Source of the DNA: Pseudomonadota bacterium
GTDB lineage: Bacteria > Pseudomonadota > Alphaproteobacteria > Rhodospirillales > Magnetospirillaceae
DNA: 64,000 nt
Direction: 5' to 3'
NCBI GenBank assembly: GCA_021782815.1
Contig: JAJXUO010000012.1
Span: forward strand, 1 to 64,000
In this document: piece by piece, positions 2,951 through 4,354 of the stretch
Numbering within the stretch: the first letter of the stretch is position 1
Layout of the letters: every line of letters starts with the position of its first letter
Made by a program: the position numbers and the translations under genes
The notes under the pieces: generated by a model
What the model saw: only the letters and a program-made list of their open reading frames with translations
Told to the model about the DNA's origin: nothing
Database searches by the model: none

Positions 2951-4354
2951 ATGGGCGGAGAGCTGTCTATTCTGGGGATCGTGCTGCAGGTCTGCGTGAT
3001 CGACTTGCTGCTGAGCGGCGATAACGCCGTGGTCATCGCCCTGGCCTGCCGCAACCTGCCGCGTCACTATGTGCGCCGAGCCATGCTGATGGGTACCGGC
3101 GCCGCGGTGCTGTTGCGGGTGGTGCTGACCACCCTGGTGGGCATTCTGATGCAGATCACCGGCCTCAAGCTGCTGGGCGGCATCGCCCTGGTGGTGATCG
3201 CCATCAAGCTCCTGGTGGCCGAGGAGGACGAGGAGGAGGACGGCCTGAAGGTGCCGGCCAACGACCTCATGGGCGCGGTCAGCGTCATTTTGCTGGCCGA
3301 TCTGGTGATGAGCCTCGACAATGTGGTGGCGCTTTCGGCGGTGGCCCAGGGCAACATGCTGGTGCTGGTGTTCGGCCTGCTGCTCAGTGTGCCGCTGCTG
3401 ATGTACGGCAGCACCTTCGTCGGCCGCCTGCTGACGACCTATCCCCAGCTGATTCCGGCGGGCGCCGCCCTGCTGGGCTGGGTGGCCGGCGACGTGGCCT
3501 GCAGCGATCCCCTGGTGGCCGACTGGATCCAGACGCAAGCGCCGGCCCTGACGGTGACGGTGCCGGCCCTGGCGGCGCTGTTCGTGCTGCTGGACGCCCG
3601 TATCATCCGCCGCCAGCGCAAACTGGCCCCCCGCCCGCGCCGCACGCTGCCGGACGATTTCCAGTTGGGCGTGCCCGACGAGGAGGCGCCCGCCGCTGTT
3701 CCGGCCCCGGTTGTCGTCGCTCCGGTGGCCGCTCCGGCTCCGGCTCCGGCTCCGGCTCCGGTTGCCGCCGCCGCGCCCACGGCTCCGGTGGCGTCTCCCG
3801 TGCCGGCCAGCGCGCCGGCGCCGGGCCTGGGGGGACTGCTGAGCGGATTCCTGCAAAATCTCGGCAAGCCGAAACCGCCCGCCGCGCCGACGGTGGCGCT
3901 TAAGCCGCACCGGGCGCCGACCCGCGCCGCGGCCGAGGCGGCGGCGGCGGTGATCCTGCTGGCCGAGGATAATCCCGGCGATCAGGCGGAAATCCGCCAG
4001 GGTCTGGAATGGCTGGGCTATGTGGTGGATTGCGCCGACGACGGCGCCGCCGCCCTGGAGAGGCTGGACCGCAGCCGCCACGGCCTGCTGCTGACCGACT
4101 GCTACATGCCGCGCCTGGATGGTTTCAAGCTGACCGCCGCCGTCCGCGCCGCCGAGGCCGGTGGTGCCGCCGCGCCGCTGCCGGTGGTGGGCATGGTGGC
4201 GCATTATTCCACCGCCGACGGCATGGGCCTGCGCCAGGAACAGGCGGGCATGAGCGATTGCGTCGGCAAGCCGCCGGCGCTGGATCAGTTGGAAAAGGCC
4301 GTTTTGCGTTGGTTGCCTGGCGCCGCCGCGCTGCGTGATGGGGAAGATCAATGA
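2951..4354 (+). CDS. TerC-family membrane protein fused to a response-regulator receiver domain
   Basis: 467 residues. Residues 1-222 are a TerC/YjbE-type integral membrane protein with the two paired acidic motifs SGDN (D24) and SLDN (D123) and about seven hydrophobic segments; an acidic EEDEEED loop follows residue 90. Residues 245-335 are an Ala/Pro-rich linker with PA repeats. Residues 334-457 are a receiver (REC) domain: acidic pair E339-D340, phosphoacceptor D383 in LLLTDCYMPRLDG and the conserved lysine K440. The usual switch Thr/Ser appears to be Val416. TerC proteins are linked to metal export, so phosphorylation could gate it; this is inference. Its stop overlaps the hflK start. Confidence 0.85.
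   Translation: MGGELSILGIVLQVCVIDLLLSGDNAVVIALACRNLPRHYVRRAMLMGTGAAVLLRVVLTTLVGILMQITGLKLLGGIALVVIAIKLLVAEEDEEEDGLKVPANDLMGAVSVILLADLVMSLDNVVALSAVAQGNMLVLVFGLLLSVPLLMYGSTFVGRLLTTYPQLIPAGAALLGWVAGDVACSDPLVADWIQTQAPALTVTVPALAALFVLLDARIIRRQRKLAPRPRRTLPDDFQLGVPDEEAPAAVPAPVVVAPVAAPAPAPAPAPVAAAAPTAPVASPVPASAPAPGLGGLLSGFLQNLGKPKPPAAPTVALKPHRAPTRAAAEAAAAVILLAEDNPGDQAEIRQGLEWLGYVVDCADDGAAALERLDRSRHGLLLTDCYMPRLDGFKLTAAVRAAEAGGAAAPLPVVGMVAHYSTADGMGLRQEQAGMSDCVGKPPALDQLEKAVLRWLPGAAALRDGEDQ

Follow-up and report, generated by a model that had tools for sequence, protein, structure and literature searches.

Within the window, by which we mean the whole 64,000-nucleotide stretch that was analysed, a single unbroken open reading frame runs from an ATG start over positions 2951–4354 of the forward strand and encodes a protein of 467 amino acids. 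In this protein a complete TerC/YjbE domain leads, through an Ala/Pro linker of about 110 residues, into a complete receiver (REC) domain, as a preliminary description of this DNA had proposed and as the Pfam and NCBIfam matches confirm. The TerC part occupies residues 1–220 (2951–3610, +) and is recognised by its hydropathy and its SGDNA and MSLDN motifs, by Pfam TerC (PF03741; residues 13–182, 141.8 bits against a cut-off of 27.8) and by the NCBIfam YjbE model TIGR03717 (residues 11–186, 191.9 bits against 134.8). These curated scores, over the whole domain, place it in the YjbE subfamily; the NCBIfam YkoY model reached 76.7 bits, below its cut-off of 138.5. The linker (3611–3943, +) holds 30 Ala and 25 Pro in 110 residues, and the REC domain covers about residues 332–467 (3944–4351, +), with Pfam Response_reg (PF00072) matching residues 335–451 over model positions 1–110 of 111 (58.6 bits, cut-off 30.2). 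Across the TerC and REC parts the G+C content of codon position 3 lies well above that of position 2, a coding signature that is weaker within the linker. Since the TerC domain is rich in Arg at its C-terminal end (DARIIRRQRKLAPRPRR), the positive-inside rule suggests that the C-terminus of the protein, and hence the REC domain, faces the cytoplasm. AlphaFold2, run on the single fusion sequence, returned a mean pLDDT of 44 and its model was discarded. The fusion contains the only TerC of the window genome.

The neighbouring genes bear out the operon that had been described, with an NRAMP-like transporter and hflKC. Upstream lies an Nramp-family transporter gene (1627–2934, +; PF01566), and downstream are hflK (4351–5358, +; TIGR01933, 246.3 bits against a cut-off of 159.4) and hflC (5355–6239, +; TIGR01932, 217.6 bits against 134.4), both of whose products also match the SPFH/Band_7 domain; the stop codon of terC overlaps the start of hflK in the ATGA at 4351–4354. 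Further upstream, a gene with a yccF domain match (989–1588, +) probably stands outside the conserved unit, because it was not found near the homologous operons. No manganese riboswitch of the yybP-ykoY type was found in the window at Rfam gathering scores, nor in positions 1–3000 at a relaxed threshold. The window has no other REC match and no kinase near the operon, and Pfam identifies no histidine kinase in the 25 window proteins to which it was applied. Beside the operon, on the reverse strand at 7049–8301, two tandem thioredoxin-like frames (TlpA-type, with a WCAPC motif) were recognised by eye only, and the window also holds, at 33493–36396, an open reading frame of 967 amino acids that has a strong coding signature and matches no Pfam family.

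We consider the fusion to be real rather than an artefact, because the architecture recurs, within the same operon, in another genus of this family. In that genome (G014) TerC, linker and REC are read in one frame as a protein of 433 amino acids, in which Pfam confirms both domains, and this rejects a frameshift or assembly error; the fear that a sequencing error had joined two separate proteins is likewise dispelled. The two proteins are 59% identical over TerC (130/220) and 46% over REC (61/134), and their linker sequences differ and are not conserved. A genome of the same genus as the window genome (G001) gave no match to the fusion TerC, although its assembly, 92% complete and in 330 contigs, may simply lack the region.

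To place this TerC we searched 55 genomes of the family, 317 of the order, even samples of 385 genomes of the class and 398 of the phylum, and 48 genomes of the class to which one relative, G770, belongs. Across this sample, which yielded eight members of one TerC lineage spanning two classes, the eight formed a single clade (support 100/99) in a tree with 37 other YjbE-type TerC proteins. All eight genes adjoin hflK and hflC, in contrast to none of the 37 others, adjacency having been scored in flanks of about 1.5 kb or more per side, contig permitting. The acidic transmembrane motifs, G23, D24 and N25 together with D117, D123 and N124, are invariant throughout it. The order nramp-terC-hflK-hflC occurs in five genomes, the window genome and four others, and a member from another family (G574) has terC-hflK-hflC, with no Nramp match near terC in the 12 kb read. 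In the two members from another class (G770 and G820), whose position inside the clade has weak support (92/58), the order is hflK-hflC-terC, and finding these partners in either of two arrangements argues for a functional link more strongly than an unchanging order would. The link between metal handling and membrane quality control is therefore much stronger than was first suggested, given the conserved synteny of nramp, terC and hflKC and the constant hflKC linkage of the clade.

The C-terminal end of these proteins varies far more than their genomic company. Two of the eight carry REC (the window genome, G000, and G014), and one has a short tail with no module (G022, whose TerC is grouped as sister to that of G014). 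Three end in a Pro-rich linker and a transmembrane helix (G015, G004 and G574), and the remaining two (G770 and G820) in a helix and about 95 residues without a Pfam match. In the last pair (L158, 6118–7548, and L159, 847–2190) the tail of about 95 residues includes two Cys. The DNA at the terC/hflK junction is nearly identical in G022 (L060, 6411) and G014 (L059, 7563), even though G022 has no REC. This fits loss of REC from G022 by deletion, and judging from the junction an in-frame loss seems to have left the ribosome-binding site of hflK in place. The REC domain is dispensable for this TerC lineage, being absent from G022, while other members have a membrane helix instead.

The claim that such a fusion is rare holds within our sample. 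Two REC fusions were found among the 55 family genomes and all 317 order genomes, and there were none in the samples of the class (385 genomes) and the phylum (398), in which the read-through covered the best-matching and longest-framed TerC hits. The long frames of other TerC hits (G308, G199, G121, G427 and others) were considered as fusions and rejected; they lack REC and owe their length to an upstream frame or to added membrane segments. None of the plasmid records reaches 80% coverage of the protein, the highest being about 40%, in the TerC part, and a peptide-pattern scan of genome contigs had a single hit, confined to the REC part. The open-access literature, mostly at the level of titles and abstracts, yielded no TerC–receiver fusion and no TerC–HflKC link.

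The receiver itself is of an unusual kind. Its phosphorylation pocket, comprising the acidic pair E339/D340, the acceptor D383 and K440, is intact in both fusions, just as had been described for the window protein, and the replacement of the switch Thr by Val416 was also correctly noted and recurs in G014. In a site table and tree of 42 RECs from the window genome and G014, the Thr position is occupied by Thr or Ser in all 40 other RECs and by Val in the two fusions. The position that should hold Tyr or Phe has Cys437, again identical in G014, although Cys437 is less distinctive than Val416, since one kinase REC (L108) has Cys there too. Both fusions also have Asp at position 344, which in most related kinase RECs is Asn. 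The switch Thr and aromatic residue normally transmit phosphorylation in receivers, and a classical phospho-switch is consequently not our default reading; with its switch residues lost and its Pfam match still above the cut-off, this is best called a divergent REC. The retention of the pocket and the loss of the switch in both copies suggest, at the level of sequence, a receiver that still accepts phosphate but would not pass it on in the canonical way. As to its source, the REC is derived from hybrid histidine kinases: in the tree the two fusion RECs form a clade (99/96) nested among hybrid-kinase RECs, which makes a single gain of REC the likeliest history, and the pairing persists (94/88) without the three unusual columns that they share.

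The Nramp neighbour has a change of its own. Its nearest solved structure is EleNRMT (7qia, 142 bits; the next best structure scores 58 bits), which transports Mg2+ and Mn2+ (PMC8806188). In the binding-site signature of the NRMT proteins, Gly, Thr and Ala replace the classical Asn, Ala and Met (PMC8806188), and despite that closest relationship the neighbour does not carry it: with DAGN in helix 1 and AAFN, it lacks Met yet keeps the DxxN pattern. At the Met position that governs selectivity, the window genome and G014 have Asn and G022 has Ser, with DAGN in helix 1, whereas G015, G004 and the stand-alone Nramp paralogues retain Met and have DAGS. The change in the metal site therefore tracks the lineage of the REC fusion, which is a correlation across three genomes of one lineage.

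The explanation we favour, and to which we would give an even chance, is that the protein is a manganese exporter or metalation factor stationed beside FtsH–HflKC, with a cytoplasmic, phosphorylatable and non-canonical REC as a docking or regulatory tail. HflK and HflC form the scaffold of FtsH in Proteobacteria, and a distinct TerC lineage would co-operate with this membrane scaffold, and hence with the protease. The TerC part would most likely export Mn2+, or pass it to proteins that are being exported or inserted into the membrane, with the adjoining Nramp-type importer supplying the divalent metal and the nearby HflKC–FtsH clearing those exported or inserted proteins that fail; such an activity is published for other TerC proteins, and by analogy may extend to this one. 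The C-terminal end of the lineage would then be an exchangeable tail, which in the window species and one other genus is a REC of hybrid-kinase origin, probably cytoplasmic, on a flexible linker. This REC can probably receive phosphate from a hybrid kinase or an HPt protein whose gene lies in another part of the genome. With the Thr and the aromatic residue of the switch lost, docking, whether dependent on phosphorylation or constitutive, is likelier than a classical switch movement. A phosphorelay input may be wired straight to the transporter, as was first proposed, but the same TerC clade occurs elsewhere without REC.

Other explanations deserve a hearing. Phosphorylation of REC by a kinase or HPt protein might directly open or close TerC and so place metal export under signal control, an arrangement favoured by a pocket that two diverged copies have both kept whole and by the window genome's wealth of hybrid kinases and its 13 HPt matches, some of them in short, possibly free-standing open frames. 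There is a parallel, too, in the TerC proteins MgpA/YoaE and YegH, whose cytoplasmic CBS-CorC module is presumed to have a regulatory function (PMC12421838). Nonetheless, the loss of both the Thr and the aromatic residue (V416, C437) in the two fusions, together with a flexible linker of some 110 residues that argues against rigid coupling, leads us to regard this as unlikely. If the output switch is gone and the phosphorylation site kept, REC could instead be a phosphate sink, or a decoy that titrates the partners of a hybrid-kinase/HPt relay, with the fusion to TerC merely setting its membrane location or its operon-coupled amount. Its grouping with hybrid-kinase RECs agrees with this, but its helix 1, the usual site of partner recognition in receivers, has diverged from the nearest kinase RECs, so that relay partners may not be shared, and why the domain should be fused to an hflKC-linked TerC is left unexplained; we think this less likely again.

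By analogy with RssB and CpdR, which present substrates to ClpXP, REC might also be a protein-docking or protease-adaptor tail that would bring clients to FtsH–HflKC or set the turnover of TerC, with phosphorylation optional. The constancy of the hflKC linkage while the tail varies, and the lost switch residues, both speak for such a role, against which the fusion REC scores 43.8 bits with the CpdR model, far under its cut-off of 180, and we give it a lower probability still. The loss of the switch Thr could, finally, mark a decaying REC, and the domain might be a passenger or simple soluble cap in a neutral fusion, as would befit its lack in G022 and the other tails that relatives bear in its place. 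This we rate lowest, with a slim chance at best, since both genera retain a REC of the same family in which no pocket residue has been lost and the substitutions follow a shared pattern, and an identity of 46% with an intact frame is hard to square with drift.

How, then, does our preferred reading, a metal-handling TerC beside FtsH–HflKC with REC as its tail, sit with known systems? The fusion shares the complete domain and the SGDN and MSLDN motifs of the YjbE subfamily (PF03741, TIGR03717), from which it differs by its linker and REC, its hflKC operon and the lack of a detected yybP-ykoY riboswitch. When YjbE of Bacillus subtilis, the namesake of that subfamily, is mutated singly, colony size is not significantly affected (PMC10550928). 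The Bacillus TerC proteins MeeF and MeeY are active in Mn efflux and copurify with Sec, FtsH and the flotillins FloT and FloA, and in their absence FtsH becomes essential (PMC10550928). MeeF (YceF) and MeeY (YkoY) of B. subtilis belong to the same TerC superfamily, and their links to FtsH and flotillins parallel the hflKC operon linkage seen here, although they come from other TerC subfamilies than the YjbE type and from a Gram-positive bacterium, and lack REC. Flotillins carry the SPFH/Band_7 domain. Because HflK and HflC carry that domain as well and scaffold FtsH, the hflKC-linked clade looks like a proteobacterial version of the Bacillus TerC–FtsH–flotillin partnership, and the TerC–HflKC link has good genomic support and is consistent with the published Bacillus data.

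In having an N-terminal TerC and a C-terminal cytoplasmic, probably regulatory module, the fusion also resembles MgpA/YoaE and YegH, in which the module is a CBS-CorC unit proposed to sense cations, as opposed to a REC of the phosphorylation type (PMC12421838). A regulated TerC is therefore not a new idea, since regulation has been proposed for the CBS-CorC proteins (PMC12421838), but regulation by a receiver would be. The SLC5/STAC histidine kinases (CrbS, RpuS and CbrA) likewise join a transporter domain to two-component parts, with the difference that there the transporter domain is part of a sensor kinase and here a lone receiver sits on a transporter. The closest sequence relatives of the fusion REC are the C-terminal RECs of hybrid histidine kinases of the RcsC and BvgS type, from which it differs in having no kinase in the same protein and in its Val and Cys at the switch positions.

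TerC proteins are widespread and poorly understood. We found no earlier genomic counterpart, for HflKC in Proteobacteria, of the Bacillus TerC–FtsH–flotillin link, and a clade that is always linked to hflKC across two classes now supplies one, making a TerC–HflKC–FtsH complex directly testable. In the version with REC, two-component signalling would act on a membrane transporter rather than on transcription, which is rare. More speculatively, and well short of a claim that we would press, this proteobacterial TerC lineage may be a dedicated metal-handling partner of FtsH–HflKC with interchangeable C-terminal modules; in the branch with REC, phosphorelay signals would reach that complex through a receiver that lacks the canonical Thr/Tyr switch, so that metal delivery or quality control at the membrane might come under two-component control with no transcription factor involved.
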